Below are positions 35 to 17,751 of a stretch of DNA of 23,057 nucleotides, piece after piece; the stretch's first letter is position 1, and every line of letters starts with the position of its first letter. The stretch is from a virus. The notes below the pieces were generated by a model. It was not told the DNA's origin, did no database searches, and saw nothing but the letters and a program-made list of their open reading frames with translations. The DNA is taken from IMG/VR virus record IMGVR_UViG_3300034103_001343, positions 1 to 23,057 of that record; one strand, given 5' to 3'. The position numbers were made by a program, and so were the translations under genes.

Positions 35-3000
35 TTAGCAAGTTAAGCAACTTGAGTTCCTGGGCTGGAAGCCCTGAATGAGTGCCTGAAACTTCATTTG
101 TGATAAAGTCTCAAAAGAGGATTGTGTCGTGAAATCTTGAATTGTGGCAACTTCAACATCTCCCTTCACAAATATTGACTTCCCTTCGTAGATTAAGTAA
201 GGATGGCGAGTGGCATCGGTCATCGCTAGCTGTGTATCCAAGTCGAAAAAATCTGTATGCAAATCTAATGATAAATCCTGCTTGTTCTGCGGTCTTCTAT
301 GAACGCCATTGGACTGCCTGTATAGGCTTTCCTCAAAGACAGGTTTCTCTCCTCCTCCATTTAGGCCAATGCGTACTCTCTGCTTCCAATCATTGAAATA
401 CTGCATTCCCTGAGCAACTGAGTTACTATCTGCCCAGAACTCAAGGATGGTAGAGAAGCAATCTGATTTATCAATGTTAATGATATTGCTTAGTGAGTAA
501 AGTGCAAACTGATCTCCGGTAGGTGGAGGTGGTGGAGGACATTCGCAGGATACCGGATCGAAGTTAAATTTAAGCTCTAATAGATTATCATTTTCATCAA
601 GATAACCCATTGTAAACTTATAATTTGTATTGCAAGGAATGTAAGGAGTGAAAAGAAAGCTAAATTCATAATCACACGCTTGCTCACTTATACACTCATC
701 CTCATCCGGCCAGGTCAATGTGTATGACATTTCAGGGATTCCTCCTAACCAATTAGTAAAGTTTGCCCAGAAAGCACAGAAATCATTTGCATATTCTCCA
801 GAAACTAAATCGGCTACTGAAATTTTATAAAGACAAGTCTTATTTTCATAAGGAAATGACTCTGAATCGGTCAAGAAAAAACCAAAATAGTCAGTTGGAT
901 AATCTTCAAGATCAGCTAACCAAGAGCATCCAGAAATAGGCACATCATTTTCAAATGTTGCCTGACACTTATCCTCACATGGGCAACAGGCAGATTCAGT
1001 AATGAAGAACGGATAATCTACATTAATACAAACTCCTCCTTCATCAGCAGCACTACAAACCTGAAATACTGCCTCTGTTTCACAAGGCAATTCAATTGTC
1101 CATTCAAAACCTATAATCAAAAAATCACTATCCCAAGTGCAAACCATGCCCGGAATGGTTGAGTTTGCCCATGCCGCTAAATCTGCTCCTATCAAATCAT
1201 AAGTAGCTACATCCGGAACTAAATAGGTATAGGTTTGATTATTTAGACTAAATGCTACATAAGGAGTTAGAGTTCCATAAAGATTAAAAACTGCCGCAAG
1301 GAAATCATCTGTGTCTGATGCACTAAATATCTTGTTATAGGTAACCTCACAAGCATTAACTGGGATTTCTCCTGATGTACTTAGGTTATAAAGACCCATT
1401 CGATAACAACCTTCCTTGCTTGGTATGGTAACAGTTGCCTGATGTTGATAAAGTGATGGATTGCTTGAGGTTAAATCGGAAGGATCAATGAATAGAAACT
1501 CCTCCGTTCCGCCAACCACCTGCTTTAGCATTTGCATCTGAATTCCACAATTGCATTCTGCCTGTGAACTTAAATCAAATGTAAATTCAACAGTACTGCC
1601 AATAATGGTCACAATTGCATTCTTAACTGAAGCAGGCCAATTAATAGCATTAAATGCATCAACAAATAATCCAGGATTGTTATTGGTTAGTGTTCCTGCC
1701 GGAATTATGCCAAGGGGTGAACCTATTAACTCTCCGGTGCAACTAACTAAGTAAAATCTAATCTCTCCTTGGTTAAAACCGGTTTCATCATAAACATCTG
1801 ACCACCATTGAGCATAGCCTAAGTTATTTCCAGAAAGTTGCCAGTAAAATCCGGTCAATGAAAATGTAACTGTCTGAACTATTGCCTCGCCTATCTTCTG
1901 AATAAAGTCTCCAGACTCTGAGAATAAGCCTACATTCGCCTGGTCAATAAAGGTGAGGTTGCCATCCACTACATTGAATTGAAACTGATCTCCCGGCTTT
2001 GCAGGCATAGGATAAAACTCTTTACTTTCAAAGCATCCTGATGTGAACTCTACAAATTCAAAGTCAAAAGTATCGTCATTGTATAACCACCTTCCGGCCT
2101 GATTGGGTTCATAAGGTAGTGCAGTTGTCTCTGAGTAAGTACTTAAAAAATCAAATGGAGGATTGATGTAAACATCACTAACAAACCTTTGCCATAACCA
2201 AGTACCTCCAATTTTTCTGCCTACTAAAATAAAAGTCCTTCTGCCTGAATCAATGAAGTTTATCTGTATCCTCTCATAAACTGTATATGATGGATAAGTA
2301 TAGGTTAGAGTATAGGTTTGAGGAAGTAAACTGCTTAACTCAATTGTTAAAGCAACCGGGTCTAAAACTTGCGGAGTTAGAAAGTCCTGAATTACTCTCT
2401 CAATAAGAGAAATGACATACAAATCATCTCCATTCAATTCAGGCAACTGGAATGTCCTTTGATTCTGATATGGATTCTGAGGTGGAGGGAATCGCTCTAT
2501 TGAACCATTGTCAAGTTTCCAATTCTTTCCCCTTGCCAGACCAGAAGTAGCAATGTTTGTTGTCGGATCAAACTTATAGGTAATCGGAAAGAAGGCAGAG
2601 CCATTCATATCCACTACATTCAATGCCTCTTGAACCTTTTTCTCAGTATCAATTAGAGGGTCATCGAATGTGCCTGAATATGAACCAGGAGCAAATGAAC
2701 TAAGGATTGCCGCTAAATTCAGAACCTTCGATGAATCAGTTGTTCCGGCAACAGTAAATTCCTGAGAGACATCCGTAGCAAATAATCCTTCATCCTTAAT
2801 GGTAAAGATGTAAGCATAGGTTGGATTGACAAAAGTCAGGTTAGCAGTTACGGTAAAGTTGCCAAAGTATGGACTTACATTAAACCCATCCACTATCCCC
2901 TTTACCGATGCCTTCAATTGTCCGTAGGTTGTTGTTCCAACTACTGCAATGGTAGGTAATGCCGTGTTGATGGCACTATACACTTCATTGAGTAAGTCAG

Positions 3001-3076
3001 AGACTATCTGGTTGTCTGGATAGAACCCAGAGTTCCATCCGGTTTCAAATCGGTAAAAAGGATTAGGATTGCCCAT
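35..3076 (-). CDS. Large cysteine-rich tail/baseplate-region structural protein
   Basis: This 1013-aa protein has the composition of a virion structural protein: it is rich in Y, F, T, N and D, has many short beta-strand-like segments, and shows no signal peptide or membrane helix. It lies in the tail cluster downstream of the tape measure and fibre genes, which suggests a baseplate or tail-tip component. Cysteines are unusually abundant for a cytoplasmically assembled phage protein. They cluster around residue 695 (ACCPCEDKC) and just before a six-proline run near residue 845 (CECPPPPPP) that looks like a hinge to a separate C-terminal domain. The ATG at 3076 overlaps the stop of the upstream 126-aa gene as TAATG, implying translational coupling. 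I do not recognise a specific family; the structural role is inferred from position and composition. Confidence 0.7.
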   Translation of the reverse strand: MGNPNPFYRFETGWNSGFYPDNQIVSDLLNEVYSAINTALPTIAVVGTTTYGQLKASVKGIVDGFNVSPYFGNFTVTANLTFVNPTYAYIFTIKDEGLFATDVSQEFTVAGTTDSSKVLNLAAILSSFAPGSYSGTFDDPLIDTEKKVQEALNVVDMNGSAFFPITYKFDPTTNIATSGLARGKNWKLDNGSIERFPPPQNPYQNQRTFQLPELNGDDLYVISLIERVIQDFLTPQVLDPVALTIELSSLLPQTYTLTYTYPSYTVYERIQINFIDSGRRTFILVGRKIGGTWLWQRFVSDVYINPPFDFLSTYSETTALPYEPNQAGRWLYNDDTFDFEFVEFTSGCFESKEFYPMPAKPGDQFQFNVVDGNLTFIDQANVGLFSESGDFIQKIGEAIVQTVTFSLTGFYWQLSGNNLGYAQWWSDVYDETGFNQGEIRFYLVSCTGELIGSPLGIIPAGTLTNNNPGLFVDAFNAINWPASVKNAIVTIIGSTVEFTFDLSSQAECNCGIQMQMLKQVVGGTEEFLFIDPSDLTSSNPSLYQHQATVTIPSKEGCYRMGLYNLSTSGEIPVNACEVTYNKIFSASDTDDFLAAVFNLYGTLTPYVAFSLNNQTYTYLVPDVATYDLIGADLAAWANSTIPGMVCTWDSDFLIIGFEWTIELPCETEAVFQVCSAADEGGVCINVDYPFFITESACCPCEDKCQATFENDVPISGCSWLADLEDYPTDYFGFFLTDSESFPYENKTCLYKISVADLVSGEYANDFCAFWANFTNWLGGIPEMSYTLTWPDEDECISEQACDYEFSFLFTPYIPCNTNYKFTMGYLDENDNLLELKFNFDPVSCECPPPPPPTGDQFALYSLSNIINIDKSDCFSTILEFWADSNSVAQGMQYFNDWKQRVRIGLNGGGEKPVFEESLYRQSNGVHRRPQNKQDLSLDLHTDFFDLDTQLAMTDATRHPYLIYEGKSIFVKGDVEVATIQDFTTQSSFETLSQMKFQALIQGFQPRNSSCLTC

Positions 3077-3456
3077 TAGAATGTGTTGAATTTACCCTCA
3101 CTATCTGCCCAGGTAATCTTCTGCGTAATGAAGTCCTGAATTATGATAGGCTCATCAATCAGAGCCATGTAGAAGTCATACTCTCCCATTGAATCTGGAG
3201 TGCCACAATCAACTATCTGTCCGGCAGAATTAACGCAGGTGGAATTATCGGCTAACAGGTTTACATACTTGGCATCGGGAGAAATAGGAAGCTCTACTCC
3301 ATCCAGGAATGCCCAGATTCTATACTTGAGCCTAATGTAAAATCCATAGTTGGCATCTGAGGCAATATCAAGTCCTGCCCATGACACATAACGCTCCATC
3401 GTAGTAATTGTCGGATGGTTGCTAATTTGATAAAGTGTATAACCCTGATATTCCAT
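3076..3456 (-). CDS. Small tail-cluster protein, unknown function
   Basis: A 126-aa soluble protein beginning MEYQGYTLYQISNH. It is mixed alpha/beta in appearance, with a segment on a rigid-body theme (YRIWAFLDGVELP) and two cysteines near residues 74 and 84. No catalytic motif is visible. It sits 10 bp after the fibre-like 282-aa gene and its stop overlaps the start of the 1013-aa gene, so it is probably co-translated with tail components and may be a small tail protein or an assembly factor. The family is not recognised. Confidence 0.65.
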   Translation of the reverse strand: MEYQGYTLYQISNHPTITTMERYVSWAGLDIASDANYGFYIRLKYRIWAFLDGVELPISPDAKYVNLLADNSTCVNSAGQIVDCGTPDSMGEYDFYMALIDEPIIIQDFITQKITWADSEGKFNTF

Positions 3457-3466
3457 TGTCTTAAAT

Positions 3467-4315
3467 TTATACTTGTCTTCCTAACTTAGATTGAAATGCC
3501 TGAACTAAAATATAATATCTTTTTGCCTCCTGCGATGTTAATCCAGTACCTATTGAACTAAAGGCAATTTCTTGTGGACTACCAAGTGCTGGACTATTAC
3601 TATCATTTCTTACTGCATACCAAATATTTAGATTTGGAGGAGTTTGTGATGCACCGGTCTGAGTCGCTCCATTTTGAATGCCATTTATAAACAATCTTTG
3701 GTCATTGCTTGCAATTCTTGAGCCAATATGAAATCCCTTTGAGTCAGTAATTCCAGTGCTTGGGCATCTATTAGCATCTACATTATTTATATTAATATTA
3801 CCAAGACCAGCAGTTGTTGTACTTGCATTTATTTGAGTGAAGAGAGTACCATCCCAACAACCCATTACAACCGAAGGTGTGGCTTGGCTCTGCCTAACAT
3901 AAATAGCCAAATGTTGGTTGTTTTGACTCCCGTTAGTGCGGGGATTATAATTTGAATTAGCCCTATTTGCAGTACTTCCATTTGTCTTCATACCGGTAGA
4001 AGCAACCGTCCATGTCCCGGTAAAGGTCATGTTAAAGGCATTTTTTAAATCAAAACCAACGGTTGATGTGGAACTACCAATTACCGGGTAAATGGCTTGG
4101 CACTTGTCATAAATTTCATTTGCAACCATTGACAATATTAGATTATTGATTGCATCTATTTCATTGATAGAAGGGCTATATCCTGCAACAACAAGTCTAT
4201 TTAAAAAATTCATAACCTGAGGGTGTAGTGTTTGTTGAATGGCAGTAGAGCCACCTATTACCCTTGTACCTCCTGCATATATGGTTGTTAGTGGCATTAG
4301 TTCAGATAGTGGCAA
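3467..4315 (-). CDS. Tail fibre / receptor-binding-like protein with a LamG-like (concanavalin-type) fold
   Basis: A 282-aa protein. The N-terminal ~90 residues contain a helical segment (LHPQVMNFLNRLV, INEIDAINNLI). The rest reads as an N/S/T/G-rich beta sandwich with features typical of LamG/concanavalin-like carbohydrate-binding modules in phage fibres: HLAIYVRQS, KGFHIGSR, RLFINGIQNG, and a closing helix (LTSQEAKRYYILVQAFQSKLG) that is common in such fibre proteins. It follows the repeat-bearing fibre gene with a 19-bp overlap, which supports a role in the same adsorption structure, perhaps as the tip. The fold assignment is by pattern only. The ligand cannot be inferred. Confidence 0.65.
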   Translation of the reverse strand: MPLSELMPLTTIYAGGTRVIGGSTAIQQTLHPQVMNFLNRLVVAGYSPSINEIDAINNLILSMVANEIYDKCQAIYPVIGSSTSTVGFDLKNAFNMTFTGTWTVASTGMKTNGSTANRANSNYNPRTNGSQNNQHLAIYVRQSQATPSVVMGCWDGTLFTQINASTTTAGLGNININNVDANRCPSTGITDSKGFHIGSRIASNDQRLFINGIQNGATQTGASQTPPNLNIWYAVRNDSNSPALGSPQEIAFSSIGTGLTSQEAKRYYILVQAFQSKLGRQV

Positions 4316-6267
4316 TAATTAACAATTGAACTTATAGAACTTGTTGTTCCTGGATTAGTCCAAGTAGCAACTACTTGTAATGTCAAGGCAGATGATGTGT
4401 TTAATGATGTTGCGGTTACTTCCGCAGGAGTAATAAAAACTGTCTCCTGATCTTTAGCAGTATGATTCACAATCATTTTTCCTGCTACACCAAAAACCGG
4501 ATTAGAACCTGATGATCTACAAGTAATACTTGTATCTATAACATATACACGATTTGTTAAATTGGTAGTGTCATAACTAAGTGTACCTAAAGTAACTGTT
4601 GTTGTTCCATCGGTTATTCTGAAATCAATTGCAACAAGCGGGCCTCCCGAATTAGCCATGCTAATTAATCCAGATAAATAAAACGCAATAGTTTTACCTG
4701 TTCCAAAGAAATTAGCAGGAAGCGCAGTAGCTCCTGTAACTGTGCCTATAAGAGACCCTGATCCAGTAGTTATTGCAGTTGGTGTATTTGTCTGAGCATA
4801 TATCCCCAAAGCAGTTAATTCTGATCCTTTGCTTATTGTTCCATTAGAGTCTGCCTGCAATAGCGCAGTTCCACTGGTAGCCAAGTCTGGGTTGCGGTCA
4901 ATGGTAACAATCTTGGTGTAATTGCTATCCTTGCGCATTGTGATGCTTGTGTTGCTACTAGCAGTATCAACCCAGAGAGAACCATTAGTAGTTCCACTAA
5001 TCGTTGCAGCGGATGTGGGAGTAAGAATCAAATGTGGAACACCTCCACTTGCTGCTCCAAGTTGTAACCTTGCTCCAGGTGTTGTAGTTCCTGCAATGCT
5101 TAGTCGGTCATTAATATTGTCAAAAAAGAAGTTTGTATTGTCCTGTTGTAATTGGCCTGAAGCAACAAACAATACTGATCCATTAGTTCCAGAGGTAATG
5201 GTGCTTCCTATTGAAATTGTTGCCGCAGGAGCATTAACCCATGATGGAGCAGAGCCTGTGCCATTGGATTGTAGGATTTGACCTGAAGTTCCTGCCGTAG
5301 GCAATTGAGATACTGCCGTGCCTGTTGCGGCATAATAAGTCAGTCGGTTAGCAGTACCAGAGTTTACAGTACCACTTCCTGATCCGGTTGCGGCAATAGT
5401 AAATGAAGGATAAGTTCCTGTAACACTTATTCCAGTTCCTGAACCTAATGAAACAATTTGGTCAGGAGCAGTATTTGCAATGGTAAAATTCGGATAAGTT
5501 CCTGTTGCATTAATTCCTGTTCCCGAACTAATAGCAACAATCTGATCAGGTGCAGTATTGGCAATGGTAAAGTTTGGATATGTACCAGTAGCATTAATCC
5601 CAGTGCCTGAACTAATAGCGACAGTTTGATCTGGTGCAGTATTGGCAATTGTAAAGTTTGGATAAGTTCCTGTTGCATTAATTCCAGTACCTGAACTAAT
5701 AGCAACAATCTGATCAGGAGCGGCATTAGTTAAAGTAACTGCTCCACTTGTTCCTCCTCCGCTTAATCCAGTTCCGGCAATTACGGCAGTAATATCACCC
5801 CCTCCACCTCCTCCGGAGATAGGGAAGAACCCGACCATCCTCCAGTTTCCTGAGCCTTCAGAGACAAGCATAGCGCAATCTCCTGCGGCAGTGGTGATGT
5901 CTGATCCACCGGGAAGAATCAATGATGTGGCATTGTAGGTCAATGTGCAGATGCCATCAAAGACTAAAACAAACCGACCTCCTGCCGGAATAGTGCCAAA
6001 ACTTGTGATGCCATTGAATGCCCCTGTGATGTGTAAGTAATTTCCAGTTGCATTTGCCAGATTAACTGTGGCAGATGCCGCTATATCACTTCCCTCATTC
6101 TCATAGATTACATTCTCAAGTCTGGAGGAGTCCTTCTGGGTGACAAAAGAATCAATCCCATTTTCCAGCCAATCCCTTAGATCAGCTGGAGAAATGAGCT
6201 GTGAAGTATTGTTCGGGAAGTTAGTGAGACTTAGTGCATCTAAGGCACTCCTGGTAATGTTAGGCAT
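4297..6267 (-). CDS. Tail fibre protein with four 28-residue repeats
   Basis: A 656-aa protein. Residues 1-150 form a collar-like N-terminal part ending in a glycine run (SGGGGGGD, residues 151-158). Residues 183-294 are four consecutive 28-residue units, each beginning APDQ and containing SGTGI-ATGTYP-FTIA. The first three are nearly identical (one I/T change) and the fourth is diverged (VSLGSGTGISVTGTYP). The rest is G/S/T/N-rich with trimeric-fibre-like strands (GQILQSNGTG, TNGSLWVDT), followed by a C-terminal domain after about residue 490. Such repeats usually form the elongated shaft of a homotrimeric fibre. The gene starts 3 bp after the upstream tail gene and overlaps the next fibre gene by 19 bp. 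The near-identity of the repeats points to recent expansion and makes copy-number change by recombination likely. Confidence 0.75.
   Translation of the reverse strand: MPNITRSALDALSLTNFPNNTSQLISPADLRDWLENGIDSFVTQKDSSRLENVIYENEGSDIAASATVNLANATGNYLHITGAFNGITSFGTIPAGGRFVLVFDGICTLTYNATSLILPGGSDITTAAGDCAMLVSEGSGNWRMVGFFPISGGGGGGDITAVIAGTGLSGGGTSGAVTLTNAAPDQIVAISSGTGINATGTYPNFTIANTAPDQTVAISSGTGINATGTYPNFTIANTAPDQIVAISSGTGINATGTYPNFTIANTAPDQIVSLGSGTGISVTGTYPSFTIAATGSGSGTVNSGTANRLTYYAATGTAVSQLPTAGTSGQILQSNGTGSAPSWVNAPAATISIGSTITSGTNGSVLFVASGQLQQDNTNFFFDNINDRLSIAGTTTPGARLQLGAASGGVPHLILTPTSAATISGTTNGSLWVDTASSNTSITMRKDSNYTKIVTIDRNPDLATSGTALLQADSNGTISKGSELTALGIYAQTNTPTAITTGSGSLIGTVTGATALPANFFGTGKTIAFYLSGLISMANSGGPLVAIDFRITDGTTTVTLGTLSYDTTNLTNRVYVIDTSITCRSSGSNPVFGVAGKMIVNHTAKDQETVFITPAEVTATSLNTSSALTLQVVATWTNPGTTSSISSIVNYCHYLN
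5386..5721 (-). repeat. Four tandem 84-bp repeats inside the tail fibre gene
   Basis: Four in-frame 84-bp units encode the 28-residue repeat of the fibre shaft. Synonymous differences between units (for example aattcctgt against aatcccagt) show that the copies are under protein-level constraint and not freshly duplicated at DNA level. The fourth unit (about 5386-5469) is the most diverged. A long open frame in another register here is a shadow of the repeat. Confidence 0.9.
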
Positions 6268-6269
6268 AT

Positions 6270-8567
6270 TTAACCACCGTTGTCATATCCATCATCAAAT
6301 CCATCATCAAATGCTCCACCTAGTTCTGATTGCAGATTAGAGTAAAGCAATGTGAATTGAGTTGTACCACCGGAGGCATCTTCCGGTTGATTGGTTGCCG
6401 AAGTTATAAAGCCTTCAATAACCAAACTGCCAGAGGTGAGCCTTACTTTCTTGTACTGCTCATCCTGAGACAAAGTTAAGAAATCGCAGAGACTTTGTGG
6501 GTAACTAAATGTAACCTCAATTGGCCTGAGTAGATAGTCCTTATAAGGCTCATCCAGAAAAAATGGAGAGACTGAATCGTTCTCTTTGATGCCCTGCTCT
6601 GGAAGGGCAAAAATATTGCAATCGTAACCAGTTATAATGCCTATTTCAATATTGGTAAAGTACTGGCCTACTTGAAACTGAAGTTTAGGAGCATTCCAAA
6701 CAATGTCATCAGGAGTTTTATAGGTGAACATTCCAACCCACTTCCACCATCTATATGCAATCCTTGCCGGAGTGATGGCAAAATTATATCTGTTGTCTAG
6801 TATGTCTCCATTGACATTACAAGCTATATTACTACTTGCCGATACCGTTCCCGGTACAAATGTGACCGCACCTGGAGTATCACCTGGAAGGTTATATTCA
6901 CTATCTTCTACGAATGTAACAGTAAATTCACTTCGATTAAGCCAGATAATAAATGTCTCATTATCATTCGGCCTATCCGAAGTTGCCGCACCAAAGGTGA
7001 TGTCAGACATCCTTCGGTAAAACTCTATCGCATAACCCTCTGCAATTATGTTTGATCTTAAATCCAATGTGGCAGATGAGTTATTATTCATTGCCTTGTT
7101 CTGAATGAAATAATTACGATCTGTGTGAACTGCATAAACACCACCAATCTGAATATTCTTCCATCTGTCGGTGTATCCGGTAATGATATTGTTCATAAGC
7201 ATATCCACCTTGGCCGCCTGAACAACTTCTCCTACATTGGCAAATGATTGACTTACCAAGTTCTGGTAGAAGTAATCTCTGGTTTCAACCCTGATTTTCC
7301 ACTCCGAACCTGTCCACTCGAATGCCCATCCAAGGCAGAAGATTTTATCGAGATCCTCAAAGGTCTTCTTCCAGGAAGTCATTAACTGCGTTCCTGCCTC
7401 TGTGGTATTATTCCTAATCCTGATACCATTGGTTAAGGCATAACTCCATTCACACCCATTGCCTGACTCACTAAAGGTGTCTGATAGCAACTTGTTATCG
7501 CTTCCTGTCATTACATAGATACACCTTCTTAGCCATTGCTCAATGGTGAGAACATCGGAAGTAGAAGCATATTGTCCTTCGTTTATTTCGCTAAGAGTAA
7601 TGGTGTAGCCATCGTAGATTGTAACATCTGAACTTGATTGTATAAATGGTTCTCCTTCAAAATATAAAGTGAATTTACACCCTGGATCTATTGTAAAACT
7701 TCCTGTATATGTTGCATTTGTAACCGTATCGGTTTGTCCAATTAATAATGTACTTGTGTGAAGTGTATTTACACTACTTACCGTAGTACCACAAGCGACC
7801 AAAGCAAATAAATATATATCCGCTGCACTTGGAGACCCACCTGTTCTTGCAACTTCAAAAGATATGTTTATTTTATAGTTAATTGTCCTTTGAGTGCTTT
7901 GGTTGTTTACAAATATTGGTGAACTAAAAGCATTGGCAAAACCAGTTATTTGAAGAAAAGCACTATTTATTGTAGAACCATAAGCCTCTTTAAAGTCTGA
8001 ACTTGTCCAATAAGTTGGTACAGCAACATATTTATGAAGTGCAGGAACTGGACTCCATCCAACAATACCAGTAAAATCCGCATAGTTCTTACCAGTAGCA
8101 GTCAAGTAAAGAGGCATCCGGTGCATCCTGATATTCCGGAATGCCAAGGCATTTATGGTACTATCATTTAAGTCTTTGGTTTTTGTTAGGTCAATCTCTA
8201 CATCAGTTCTGGCCTTGAAATCCTCCCTGAAATTATCATCAATGATGCCTACTGTAATCTCCCAGGAGTCAGTATCACAGACATTCTTCTCTTGATAAAT
8301 TGCCAGATTGAGAAAGCCATCAAACTGGTAGGAGGAGTTTCCATAGCCTACATCAGAAGTAATGGTTATGGCAATGGGTTGATTGATGAAGTACTCATCA
8401 TAAATCCTTTTTATGTATCTCGCTCCTTCCGCATAGAACCTCACCTCAGTGCTGAATGGCTGATCTATGCCATGAGATTCCATCCGGATTGCCGTGAACT
8501 CAATGGCATCCCAGCCGATTGGTTCTTCTACTTCATTCCCATCAAGAAAAAACTTCCAGTTCGCCAT
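6270..8567 (-). CDS. Tail protein (distal tail/baseplate type), unassigned
   Basis: A 765-aa protein encoded directly downstream of the tape measure, the position of distal-tail and tail-associated lysin/baseplate-hub proteins in siphoviruses. It opens with MANWKFFLDGNEVEEP followed by beta-rich sequence (FSTEVRFYAEGARYIKRIYDEYF), compatible with a distal-tail-like N-terminus. The middle (about residues 330-500) is of mixed composition with WEWTGSEW-like segments. No peptidase or lysozyme motif is evident. The C-terminus is a short acidic/glycine repeat (FDDGFDDGYDNGG). Its start shares bases with the tape measure stop (TAATG), implying coupled translation. The role is inferred from position; the family is not recognised. 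Confidence 0.7.
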   Translation of the reverse strand: MANWKFFLDGNEVEEPIGWDAIEFTAIRMESHGIDQPFSTEVRFYAEGARYIKRIYDEYFINQPIAITITSDVGYGNSSYQFDGFLNLAIYQEKNVCDTDSWEITVGIIDDNFREDFKARTDVEIDLTKTKDLNDSTINALAFRNIRMHRMPLYLTATGKNYADFTGIVGWSPVPALHKYVAVPTYWTSSDFKEAYGSTINSAFLQITGFANAFSSPIFVNNQSTQRTINYKINISFEVARTGGSPSAADIYLFALVACGTTVSSVNTLHTSTLLIGQTDTVTNATYTGSFTIDPGCKFTLYFEGEPFIQSSSDVTIYDGYTITLSEINEGQYASTSDVLTIEQWLRRCIYVMTGSDNKLLSDTFSESGNGCEWSYALTNGIRIRNNTTEAGTQLMTSWKKTFEDLDKIFCLGWAFEWTGSEWKIRVETRDYFYQNLVSQSFANVGEVVQAAKVDMLMNNIITGYTDRWKNIQIGGVYAVHTDRNYFIQNKAMNNNSSATLDLRSNIIAEGYAIEFYRRMSDITFGAATSDRPNDNETFIIWLNRSEFTVTFVEDSEYNLPGDTPGAVTFVPGTVSASSNIACNVNGDILDNRYNFAITPARIAYRWWKWVGMFTYKTPDDIVWNAPKLQFQVGQYFTNIEIGIITGYDCNIFALPEQGIKENDSVSPFFLDEPYKDYLLRPIEVTFSYPQSLCDFLTLSQDEQYKKVRLTSGSLVIEGFITSATNQPEDASGGTTQFTLLYSNLQSELGGAFDDGFDDGYDNGG

Positions 8568-15102: not shown

Positions 15103-15366
15103 TTAAACTTGTTTCCGCAAAGATAGGTATTTCAGAATTGAGACATATATCTCTCTTTGGTTATGCCAGCGGCTCATGTGCCTGGTGTAACCACCTTTGG
15201 CAATCTTGGCATCTAGTTGCTTAATCTTCCGGTGCAGGTATTCCAGGCAGTCCTGATAGTTCGGAGGTAGTGAAATGTGTTCGTACATAAGGTCGTTTTG
15301 GTAAGTTACATTAGTGTGCCAGAGTTCTGGCATTTGGCTTAGATGGATGGCATTTAGTTCAATCAT
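15103..15366 (-). CDS. Small hypothetical protein downstream of DnaB-like helicase
   Basis: An 87-aa protein starting MIELNAIHLSQMPELWHTNV. It looks mostly helical in its second half (YQDCLEYLHRKIKQLDAKIA, then HMSRWHNQREIYVSILKYL), is basic at the C-terminus, and shows no membrane segment. Its start overlaps the helicase stop by 8 bp, so it is co-translated with it. A helicase loader or other replication helper is possible by position, but there is no AAA+ or other diagnostic motif. The family is not recognised. Confidence 0.65.
   Translation of the reverse strand: MIELNAIHLSQMPELWHTNVTYQNDLMYEHISLPPNYQDCLEYLHRKIKQLDAKIAKGGYTRHMSRWHNQREIYVSILKYLSLRKQV
15118..15125 (-). promoter_or_regulatory. 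Candidate promoter -7 box upstream of the 48-aa gene
   Basis: TATCTTTG on the minus strand matches the Bacteroidota -7 consensus TAnnTTTG, 20 bp before the ATG at 15098, the same offset seen at other candidate promoters in this window. No upstream TTTG at the usual spacing is visible, so it is tentative. It would drive the 48-aa, methyltransferase and terminase genes. Confidence 0.35.
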
Positions 15367-16690
15367 GGTAATCTTTTAGCCTCATTAGTGGGGCATCGAA
15401 TCGCAAAGGTACTATTCCGGTGCTACCAGAGCGCATTTTAACCTGATCAATCAGGCAAAGGTCTTGGTTTGGCAATTCTGCGCTTCCTACTTTAGTTGTT
15501 GCTGTTGGCTCAAAGTAGTACTCAGGCCTAAGCATCATCCAGATGACATCTGCATCTTGCTCAACCGAACCCGACTCTCTAAGGTCACTCATAAGAGGCA
15601 TCTTATCGCTGCGTTCATCTACTCTCCGGCTGAGCTGTGATAGTGCTACCACTGGAATCTGAAGCTCCTTGGCAAGTAGTTTCAATCCTCTGCTTATTTC
15701 TCCTATTATGTTTACTCGGTTTGTCTCTTTAGGATTGACAGAGTTGATAAGGCCAATGTAGTCCACAAATAGCACCTGCATCTTGTGCTTGTTCTTCCAC
15801 ATGGTTGCCTTGGTTCTGATTTTGCTCATGTTGAGATAGCCTTCATCGCTAATCTTGATTGGCCACTGCTTCATGCGGTGAACAGCATTATTGATTGCAT
15901 TTTTATCGTATGGATTAAGATCGCCCTGTTTGATTTTAAAGGCATAGACCTTGCTCTCCTGAGATGCCAATCTCTGCACCATTTCGTGCTTAGTCATCTC
16001 AAGGCTGAACATGCCACAGCCTATTCCTTGGTTTGCTAAGTTTCTGATAATTGATACAGCAAGGGCAGTCTTGCCTTGTCCTGGTCTAGCTCCAATGATG
16101 GTGAGTTCACCATTGACCAGCCCTCCGCATAGTTTATCAAGTGCATCAATTCCGGTGCGATAGCCTGCGATGTCTCCAGGCTGACTATTTAGCCAGACCT
16201 TTGCCGACTCATCGAGCTGCTTCTGAAAGTCATCATCTGATCGTGTAATTGTAGAGGCAAGTATGTTGTCGAACTTTGACTGATACTCTGAAAATAAGTC
16301 AAAAATATCACCAGCATCAGACTGCGACTTCTGGAGTAGCTCAATGCTGAAGGTATATAGTTTTGCCTTCAGGAAGTGTTCAATAAGCAGGTGGCTGTGG
16401 CTCTCGATGTGACCAGGAGACTTTAGGCAGCCATAGATGTTGGCAATTGCTCTTGTTCCTCCGGCTTCTTTGATTAGTCCTGACTTCTTTATTGTGGAAA
16501 CCACAGTTTCTAAATCAACAGGCTCACCAGCATCTTGTAATGCCTGGATTGCCTTGGCTAATATCTTGTGCTGCTCATTCTGGAAGCAGTCAAGAGTGGG
16601 CAGGATGGAGAAGGCTGTTAGCCTGTCCTCCGGTGAGATCATCATTGCGGAAAGTACTTGCCTCTCCAGTTCTGAATTTTCGAATTGCAT
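15359..16690 (-). CDS. dnaB: DnaB-like replicative DNA helicase
   Basis: A 443-aa protein. Residues 3-110 are the DnaB N-terminal helical domain (NSELERQVLSAMM ... CLKSPGHIESHSHLLIEH). A linker follows, then the RecA-like ATPase: motif H1/Walker A GARPGQGKT (200-208), SLEM (229-232, H1a region), Walker B VLFVDYIGLI (306-315), the glutamine/arginine-finger region ALSQLSRRVDER, and SDLRESGSVEQDADV near 365-380. This is the 5'-3' hexameric helicase that unwinds the replication fork. Length is close to bacterial DnaB (about 450-470 aa). It is encoded directly after the helix-turn-helix initiator-like gene (11 bp), so the two probably act together at the phage origin. Confidence 0.95.
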   Translation of the reverse strand: MQFENSELERQVLSAMMISPEDRLTAFSILPTLDCFQNEQHKILAKAIQALQDAGEPVDLETVVSTIKKSGLIKEAGGTRAIANIYGCLKSPGHIESHSHLLIEHFLKAKLYTFSIELLQKSQSDAGDIFDLFSEYQSKFDNILASTITRSDDDFQKQLDESAKVWLNSQPGDIAGYRTGIDALDKLCGGLVNGELTIIGARPGQGKTALAVSIIRNLANQGIGCGMFSLEMTKHEMVQRLASQESKVYAFKIKQGDLNPYDKNAINNAVHRMKQWPIKISDEGYLNMSKIRTKATMWKNKHKMQVLFVDYIGLINSVNPKETNRVNIIGEISRGLKLLAKELQIPVVALSQLSRRVDERSDKMPLMSDLRESGSVEQDADVIWMMLRPEYYFEPTATTKVGSAELPNQDLCLIDQVKMRSGSTGIVPLRFDAPLMRLKDYHD

Positions 16691-16701: not shown

Positions 16702-17439
16702 TTAAAGTTTAAAGGTAAAGGATTCATGTAACTGATGTGATTTTCTTTTTGGCATTTGGTCAGCCTGCGGCGGCGGAACTTCAATGGTTTGCTCGTTATT
16801 TTGGTTTTTAAAAATCCAATTGTTACGAACAGTGCTTTTCCAATTGATTAATTTTTTGCCAAACTTATTATGCCAGTCAAGTTCCTTGTAATAGAAGTAG
16901 CATTTTTCTGCCTGATCTCTTGAAGCTCCTTGCTCCAGAAAGTAGGCTTCTACTTGCTCATAGGTTGGAGGCACAAACTGAATTTTTTGCCTTTTAGCTT
17001 TTTCTGGCTTTGGCTCATTACTAATAGGTTTATGGTTTATTGGTTTATGGTTTATTGGTTTAACTATTGGGTCAGGTGCTTGCTCAGTTGGTTGCTCATG
17101 TGCTTGCTCAGTTGGTGTGTCAAGTGGTGTGTCAGGTGCTTGCTCAAATTTTGACAGGGCAATTATTGATGCATGATGATATTGATTGCAAGACTCACGG
17201 ATTAACTTTATAAAACCATAGTCAATTAAGTCACCAAAAAGTTTTTTGTAAGTATTTCTGCTACCTATCGAAAGCACCTCCATTGTGTGCAATCTAGGAA
17301 GCCCGAACTCTGATTTTTGACCAAAATAATTCCATCGATCAACTATGTAGAAATAAAGTTCAGCATGCGCTGAAGATAGTTTGCCTGGATTATTAAATCT
17401 CCATTCAAACCATTGTCTGGTTAATTGATATCCATTCAT
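16702..17439 (-). CDS. Helix-turn-helix replication initiator-like protein
   Basis: A 245-aa protein with two domains. Residues 1-98 are winged-helix-like (LSSAHAELYFYIVDRWNYF, then GLPRLHTMEVLSIGSRNTYKK and FGDLIDYGFIKLI), as in phage replisome organisers and DnaD/O-type initiators. A low-complexity linker follows at 99-142 with repeated TEQA/PTEQAPD and PINHKPINHKPI. Residues 150-215 form a C-terminal helical domain (YEQVEAYFLEQGASRDQAEK, WKSTVRNNW), resembling the domain that contacts helicase in such proteins. It lies just upstream of the DnaB-like gene, the lambda O/P-type arrangement. The repeats in the linker DNA are iteron-like. Its ATG overlaps the TGA of the preceding 57-aa gene (ATGA). 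The exact family is not certain. Confidence 0.78.
   Translation of the reverse strand: MNGYQLTRQWFEWRFNNPGKLSSAHAELYFYIVDRWNYFGQKSEFGLPRLHTMEVLSIGSRNTYKKLFGDLIDYGFIKLIRESCNQYHHASIIALSKFEQAPDTPLDTPTEQAHEQPTEQAPDPIVKPINHKPINHKPISNEPKPEKAKRQKIQFVPPTYEQVEAYFLEQGASRDQAEKCYFYYKELDWHNKFGKKLINWKSTVRNNWIFKNQNNEQTIEVPPPQADQMPKRKSHQLHESFTFKL
17027..17062 (-). repeat. 15-bp AT-rich direct repeats in the initiator gene
   Basis: On the plus strand the unit GGTTTATGGTTTATT occurs at 17027-17041 and 17042-17056, and the next six bases repeat its start (17057-17062). The hexamer GGTTTA therefore occurs five times in 36 bp. It codes for the PINHKPINHKPI stretch. An AT-rich tandem array beside further repeats suits an origin unwinding region. 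Confidence 0.85.
17077..17146 (-). repeat. Iteron-like TGCTTGCTCA and GGTGTGTCA repeats in the initiator gene
   Basis: On the plus strand TGCTTGCTCA occurs at 17077, 17101 and 17137 (spacings 24 and 36 bp). The first two copies extend to a perfect 16-bp match. The 16-mer GTCAGGTGCTTGCTCA occurs at 17071-17086 and 17131-17146. GGTGTGTCA occurs twice, 12 bp apart (17114-17122 and 17126-17134). All spacings are multiples of 12 bp. Together with the adjacent AT-rich array it is a candidate replication origin. Confidence 0.8.
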
Positions 17440-17609
17440 AGATATATTCCACTATCAAGTAAAATTTGTTCAACTGAAGGCATATCTAAGAAATCATCAT
17501 AAATACCTTCTGCAACAAGAGTTTCATCTAACCACACCATAACTTTGACATTGTTAAGTTCTGGACTGTGAGTGATGTCAATTTTTAATTCTTTAAAAAC
17601 TAAGTGCAT
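17436..17609 (-). CDS. 57-aa hypothetical protein coupled to the initiator gene
   Basis: A small acidic protein, MHLVFKELKIDITHSPELNN at the start, then VKVMVWLDETLVAEG and DMPSVEQILLDSGIYL. It is a plausible alpha/beta small domain with no known motif. The stop TGA overlaps the initiator's ATG, arguing that it is really translated and coupled. The frame is open back to a TTG at 17750, but that extension would run through a highly structured RNA element and has no ATG, so the ATG at 17609 is preferred. The T-rich end of the upstream hairpin is only 6 bp before this ATG, so translation or transcription of the replication genes may be attenuated there. Confidence 0.6.
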   Translation of the reverse strand: MHLVFKELKIDITHSPELNNVKVMVWLDETLVAEGIYDDFLDMPSVEQILLDSGIYL

Positions 17610-17611
17610 AA

Positions 17612-17719
17612 AAATAAAAAAACCCTTTGTTCGCCGTTCGAGGTAGGAGTCTCTACTAAGCGGACAAAGGGCAATAAATTTTTTCACAAACGCTGCTCCT
17701 ACCCAGCGGCCTTTCGGCT
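17612..17719 (-). ncRNA. Candidate structured small RNA / attenuator with kissing loops
   Basis: Read on the minus strand, a GCC-GAAA-GGC hairpin (17718-17709) is followed at once by a hairpin with stem CGCTG/CAGCG and 8-nt loop GGTAGGAG (17708-17691). A 19-nt A/T-rich linker follows, then a larger hairpin with an 8-bp outer stem CCCTTTGT/ACAAAGGG (17671-17664 with 17630-17623) and an inner CGC/GCG stem. Its loop contains CTCCTACC (17649-17642), the exact complement of the first loop. Seven T follow the outer stem (17622-17616). A TTTG-N17-TATATTTG promoter lies just upstream. This is the layout of a free-standing RNA ending at an intrinsic terminator, or of a leader attenuator for the replication operon. 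No known family is recognised. Confidence 0.6.
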
Positions 17720-17722
17720 TTG

Positions 17723-17751
17723 CAAATATAACTAACTTCTCACTGCCCAAA
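17723..17751 (-). promoter_or_regulatory. Candidate promoter for the structured RNA and replication genes
   Basis: On the minus strand TTTG (17751-17748) and TATATTTG (17730-17723) are separated by 17 bp, matching the Bacteroidota -33/-7 pattern TTTG ... TAnnTTTG. The start point would fall about 17716-17719, exactly at the beginning of the GCC-GAAA-GGC hairpin. It lies over the 3' end of the coiled-coil membrane protein gene. Confidence 0.5.

Follow-up and report, generated by a model that had tools for sequence, protein, structure and literature searches.

What does a folded RNA do when it lies directly before the replication genes of a phage? The stretch of DNA analyzed here (the window) is 23,057 nt of a virus (IMG/VR record IMGVR_UViG_3300034103_001343). 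An earlier note described in it a free-standing RNA with its own promoter, three hairpins, two complementary loops, and a terminator, and left two functions open: a small regulatory RNA, or an attenuator that controls the genes for the 57-aa protein, the initiator, and the helicase. The question is whether this locus specifies an RNA that acts on its own or the leader of the genes that follow it.

We found that the elements of the proposed RNA are present in the window, on the minus strand (Table 1). At the sequence level, the promoter described as TTTG-N17-TATATTTG is found at 17751-17723, and the last stem does end in seven T's, at 17622-17616. The transcript is predicted to start a few nucleotides downstream of TATATTTG. 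A TAnnTTTG sequence occupies the equivalent position in most members of the class A alignment (described below); the TTTG of the window promoter is not conserved across all relatives. All three of the hairpins are there, except that the third is compound, consisting of P3 with an internal loop, and P3b. Its order is 8 bp, a C-A mismatch, 4 bp, an AGUA/GAA internal loop, the 3-bp P3b, and an 8-nt loop. The 8-nt complement between the loops (GGTAGGAG and CTCCTACC) also exists in the window, but the conserved kissing helix, K1, is 7 bp (GTAGGAG/CTCCTAC). The eighth pair (G-C) is missing from some members, and its C is also part of P3b. Folding z-scores were -2.46 for the whole element and -3.51 for the 3' hairpin. 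In a scan of both strands of the window for terminators with kissing loops, the element scored 36 and the runner-up 25.

Table 1. Features of the element and of the replication operon in the window
Feature	Position	Strand	Basis or remark
Element	17751-17616	-	Flanked by the end of a 94-aa membrane-type ORF and by the first ORF (57 aa) of the replication operon
-33-like TTTG of a Bacteroidota-type promoter	17748..17751	-	Sequence; inside the 3' end of the 94-aa ORF
-7 element TATATTTG (TAnnTTTG)	17723..17730	-	17-nt spacer from TTTG
P1 hairpin, GCC-GAAA-GGC, GNRA tetraloop	17709..17718	-	Alignment of class A
P2 hairpin, CGCTG-GGTAGGAG-CAGCG	17691..17708	-	Bears the 5' kissing loop (17703-17696)
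K1 5' strand, GTAGGAG	17696..17702	-	Pairs with 17649-17643
A-rich linker, 19 nt	17672..17690	-	Sequence; from P2 to the terminator hairpin
P3, compound terminator hairpin	17623..17671	-	Sequence, folding, class A alignment
AGUA/GAA internal loop of P3	17657-17654/17639-17637	-	
P3b, apical stem	17653-17651/17642-17640	-	
CTCCTACC in the P3 loop	17649-17642	-	Sequence
K1 3' strand, CTCCTAC, terminator loop	17643..17649	-	Class A alignment
T7 run of the intrinsic terminator	17616..17622	-	Sequence; followed by A, T5, and ATG at 17609
57-aa ORF, first gene past the terminator	17436..17609	-	Start codon 17609-17607
Replication-initiator-like protein, 245 aa	16702..17439	-	Similarity to cultured-phage proteins
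DnaB-type helicase, same operon	15359..16690	-	Pfam DnaB_C, E 3.6e-78
Candidate origin, about six 12-bp tandem repeats beside AT-rich 8/15-bp repeats	17027..17155		Inside the initiator gene

We found that related phages carry re-paired versions of this fold. A search of IMG/VR with the initiator protein of the window gave 23 loci, and most of those with upstream DNA had an RNA of one of two classes, A or B, before the replication genes. Additional members of both classes came from pattern scans that left out the kissing sequence. The loci were gathered by sequence patterns, and their counts are not an unbiased census. We aligned 21 class A sequences (alignment A1) and 29 class B sequences (alignment A2) and included the pseudoknots in the pair counts. 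In class A, 99.8% of cells were paired, and nine pairs had changed on both sides. The covariation score was 0.208, compared to 0.088 in shuffles, and a slid alignment was only 39-47% paired. In class B, 99.4% of cells were paired and 18 pairs showed two-sided change. None of 500 shuffles reached the observed covariation score in either class.

The changes include the kissing helix itself. K1 of class A was 100% paired and occurs as GTAGGAG/CTCCTAC, GTAGCAG/CTGCTAC, and GTAGAGG/CCTCTAC. The kissing helix of class B has six versions (TGCGAC, TGAGAC, TGACAC, TACGAC, TGCGAA, and TACGAA, each with its complement). The linker is A-rich in both classes; that of class B holds one strand of a second long-range helix, K2, formed with an inner loop, and all five K2 pairs had changed on both sides. 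In class A, P1 has a GAAA loop in 21 of 21 sequences with a stem that covaries (C-G/U-A), three pairs of the P2 stem differ on both sides, and P3b appears as GAG/CTC, GGG/CCC, or AGG/CCT. The AGUA/GAA loop, which matches the consensus of the G-bulged (sarcin-ricin) motif, adjoins the apical stem in both classes. The class A covariance model detected class B contigs (down to 7.8e-10) and the class B model detected the window (2.9e-8), indicating that A and B are one superfamily. Among standard pairs, G-T cells far outnumbered A-C cells (25 vs 0 in class A, 49 vs 5 in class B), which indicates that the structure is selected as RNA of the minus sense and disfavors a structure of the plus strand or at the DNA level. 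The earlier note had named relatives lacking paired changes as evidence that would count against it; the relatives have paired changes in both stems and loops. Because re-paired versions occur in related phages, we conclude from these alignments that the kissing-loop fold is real.

We found that the element is probably not free-standing. We compared 77 distinct cassettes from the collected loci, two of which are probably spurious. The distance from the terminator stem to the first ATG is 20 nt or less in 73 of them (median 11 nt), and no TAnnTTTG occurs in between. With the ATG this close and no promoter between, the downstream genes would be readable only by polymerase that passes the terminator. 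In the window, the start codon of the 57-aa ORF (17609) follows the T7 run by 6 nt, so the element, although located before the replication operon as proposed, is not an isolated intergenic RNA. Judged by sequence, the layout is that of an attenuator, i.e., a promoter, an intrinsic terminator, and a gene with no promoter in between, and not that of a small RNA unit that is dispensable for reading the next gene. Free-standing RNA is therefore the less favored of the two functions suggested in the earlier note. The other, attenuation of the 57-aa ORF and of the initiator and helicase genes, has better support, but not in its classic form: by inspection, we saw no mutually exclusive anti-terminator helix, and any switch would not be of the classic two-state kind.

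The short distance between stem and ATG might also belong to a 5' untranslated region that controls mRNA stability or translation. The locked 5' hairpins would then stabilize the replication mRNA and display its start codon, and the T run would be a U-rich ribosome-binding region. The stem ends ~11 nt before the ATG, P1 begins within a few nucleotides of the predicted transcript start, and Bacteroidota usually lack Shine-Dalgarno sequences. However, a comparable T run is uncommon before the ATG of ordinary ORFs in these phages (9.6%), the T run comes directly after a G+C-containing stem, as in intrinsic terminators, and contig L030 (below) keeps a T run upstream of a separate Shine-Dalgarno sequence. 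We regard this explanation as improbable.

A terminated RNA of ~105 nt could itself be functional, as a small RNA made compact and nuclease-resistant by its kissing loops, with targets in the host or the phage that it would reach in trans; read-through would be either incidental or the result of upstream transcription. By sequence, the element has its own promoter and a strong terminator, and the fold is more elaborate than simple attenuation requires (class B has two pseudoknots, and there are the AGUA/GAA motif and the GNRA loop). The GTAGGAG loop is common to classes A and C (class C is described below) despite quite different stems. The identity of the RNA is also decoupled from that of the next gene: class A and class B can precede the same ORF, and class A precedes many unrelated ORFs. 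This decoupling argues against gene-specific autoregulation. A role in trans is harder to reconcile with the position of the ATG, close by and with no intervening promoter in nearly all cassettes, and with the replication genes that adjoin the element in the cases checked. The loop 8-mer has a single other occurrence in the window, at 8327-8334 (as CTCCTACC on the coding minus strand, in a 765-aa ORF), and this copy is probably due to chance. We consider a trans-acting small RNA unlikely, but an alternative to be taken seriously.

Two further kinds of control were weighed. In class B, an ORF begins at an ATG in the linker and runs for ~31 codons through the hairpin, and its translation would open the terminator. 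The ATG is invariant and the frame open in 29 of 29 class B sequences, and both are also found in class B'. However, class A has no conserved start or frame, the substitutions track base pairing and not codons, the position of the stop varies, and an open frame of 31 codons is not unusual by chance. Attenuation by a leader peptide is thus extremely improbable. In many members, the ORF from the invariant class B ATG (at least 31 codons) ends by overlapping the start codon of the next ORF, as ATGA. The other possibility is an RNA like put of phage HK022 that modifies RNA polymerase for processive antitermination past the later terminators in the early operon. The element resembles put in being a folded phage RNA, presumably cis-acting, right after an early promoter, and it stands at the head of the replication operon and appears to be general rather than gene-specific. 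Unlike put, whose hairpins do not run into a terminator and for which kissing is not known, the element has a terminator at its own end and has complementary loops. We think this function very improbable.

The genes past the terminator include those expected to start replication. The 57-aa ORF had no Pfam or PHROG match. The C-terminal part of the initiator-like protein shares 36% identity with the protein annotated for replication in Flavobacterium phage elemoA, and the N-terminal part shares 35% identity with a protein of Polaribacter phage Danklef_1 that matches replication-initiation families. The repeats inside the initiator gene (Table 1), which are similar in relatives, are likely the phage replication origin. 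Their placement resembles that in lambda, whose origin lies within its initiator gene. We rejected the idea of an origin within the RNA itself, since the origin-typical repeats were found inside the initiator gene instead. Read-through from the promoter would cross these repeats, and the terminated RNA would end ~460 nt short of them. Control of read-through could therefore affect both the supply of initiator and transcription of the putative origin. Elsewhere in the window, an 84-bp tandem repeat (5408-5721, 3.7 copies) lies in a 656-aa ORF for a probable tail or fibre protein.

Based on these results we lean, by a little, toward the notion that the replication operon of this Bacteroidota phage has the element as its structured 5' leader and as a transcription attenuator close to the promoter, and that the element probably sets the amount of replication protein made by the phage. 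RNA polymerase would start at the TAnnTTTG promoter. P1 and P2 would fold first, followed by the terminator hairpin P3, whose loop would then kiss the P2 loop (K1) and lock leader and terminator in one compact fold. Much of the transcription would stop at the U run, giving an RNA of ~105 nt as a short product. Only polymerases that read through would make mRNA, with the first start codon a few nucleotides past the terminator, resulting in expression of the initiator, the helicase, and the 57-aa protein and in transcription across the putative origin. We infer that transcription would actually terminate at the U run and that K1 would set the balance between termination and read-through. The modularity of the RNA relative to the adjacent gene points to a general factor (the state of the polymerase, a host or phage antiterminator, or the growth state), and not the product of the adjacent gene, as the signal that might change this balance. 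However, the kissing helix makes no use of the terminator stem and need not affect termination, and the same sequence would be expected if the terminated RNA were the main product and read-through merely sufficient.

We found the same layout directly before the replication genes of three cultured phages. In Flavobacterium phage FCL-2, a replication-initiation gene (phrog_428, 4.7e-32) immediately follows TATATTTG, CATCCAC, and a terminator that contains GTGGATG, and the AGUA/GAA motif is there too; the FCL-2 score by itself is near the noise of the scan (0.2 shuffle matches per set at scores of at least 36). In elemoA, the region upstream of the replication genes contains TATCTTTG, TGAGAGC in a hairpin, and GCTCTCA in a terminator. 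Danklef_1, read by eye, has TATATTTG, GGTGGAA, and TTCCACC. The element is not universal, as there was no convincing case in the examined sequence of Flavobacterium phage 11b, Nonlabens phage P12024S, or 50 kb of Cellulophaga phi38:1. Class C RNAs have long first hairpins and loops as in the window, and precede other ORFs, several of which begin like known phage replication proteins. One of them (L190), found without reference to the loops, has loops changed to GTGGTAG/CTACCAC. Across class C (L026, L031, L044, L190, and others), the loop GGTAGGAG is nearly constant and the stems are variable, which hints at a constraint beyond self-pairing.

Some contigs have more than one kissing-loop RNA. 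Four (L075, L078, L095, and L139) have two in tandem, class A and then class B' (e.g., L078 7392-7895), with one or two small ORFs between them and a replication ORF after. The kissing sequences of the two are different and mutually non-complementary, and each RNA has its own promoter-like boxes, as expected if the pairing acts in cis. Contig L030 (IMGVR_UViG_3300032038_000063), apparently from an unrelated, non-Bacteroidota phage with TATAAT-like boxes and Shine-Dalgarno sequences, has four cassettes within 2.5 kb (2074-4525). Each consists of a promoter, a hairpin with a 7-nt loop, a terminator with a complementary 7-nt loop, a Shine-Dalgarno sequence, and an ATG. No two of the four hairpin loops are alike, and each is the complement of the terminator loop in its own cassette. 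A cassette akin to the L030 layout is also present at L039 4722-4810. Prophage or host copies were sought with the class A pattern in GTDB genomes, which gave chance matches only, and model searches of 42 and 395 genomes, a weak search without a positive control, gave nothing convincing. DNA similarity to annotated phages was limited to short, weak matches for the window, and there was none for class B, B', C, D, and L030 cassettes.

The element did not match a known family in Rfam. No family in Rfam 15 matched the window above its gathering score, and for class B and class C representatives the matches were weak and no better than chance. Membership in RT-14 (RF02921) was rejected: the match was 28.0 bits, below the gathering cut-off of 48.1, and covered model positions 89-144 only. 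The likeness is limited to the A-rich linker and a stem with UUAGUA...GAA. The best RT-14 match among 395 Bacteroidota genomes lies on a small contig that also encodes a reverse transcriptase and a protein of variable type, i.e., in a diversity-generating retroelement; neither the window nor seven related contigs had a reverse transcriptase (RVT_1) match. We also rejected a type III toxin-antitoxin RNA. ToxI-like systems have tandem RNA repeats, a terminator, and a conserved endoribonuclease toxin gene. Here the RNA is single copy without a tandem repeat, the downstream ORFs are mutually unrelated, and the 57-aa ORF lacks a match as noted above.

Better-known attenuators are similar in part. 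Those of plasmid rep genes (pT181 and pIP501 type) share a terminator just upstream of the start codon of a replication initiator and hairpin loops that kiss, but there the loops pair with a second, antisense RNA. In the present element a single RNA holds both loops, and we identified no antisense promoter or RNA. The leader RNAs of phages P4 (CI) and P1 (C4), antisense regulators of immunity, are also short phage leaders that contain complementary segments and halt transcription of genes for replication or anti-immunity. In contrast, the loop-loop helix here is intramolecular and precedes the replication initiators of phages not known to form lysogens.

We tentatively propose, as a possibility a little short of even, that these RNAs are an undescribed class of phage leader with a kissing-loop terminator, in which a promoter-proximal hairpin would pair with the terminator loop and set expression of the initiator. 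The class would recur, re-paired, across Bacteroidota phages, with the bare layout also ahead of several consecutive genes in the apparently unrelated contig L030. We found no paper on such an element in the literature searched, which included few subscription journals, and pairing of a loop with the loop of an intrinsic terminator on one RNA would be a control layout absent from that literature. With natural compensatory changes, no Rfam entry, and a site before the initiator in cultured phages, the proposal is directly testable. Little is known about the timing of replication genes in Bacteroidota phages, and the element is a handle on it. It may also be a compact expression part for Bacteroidota.
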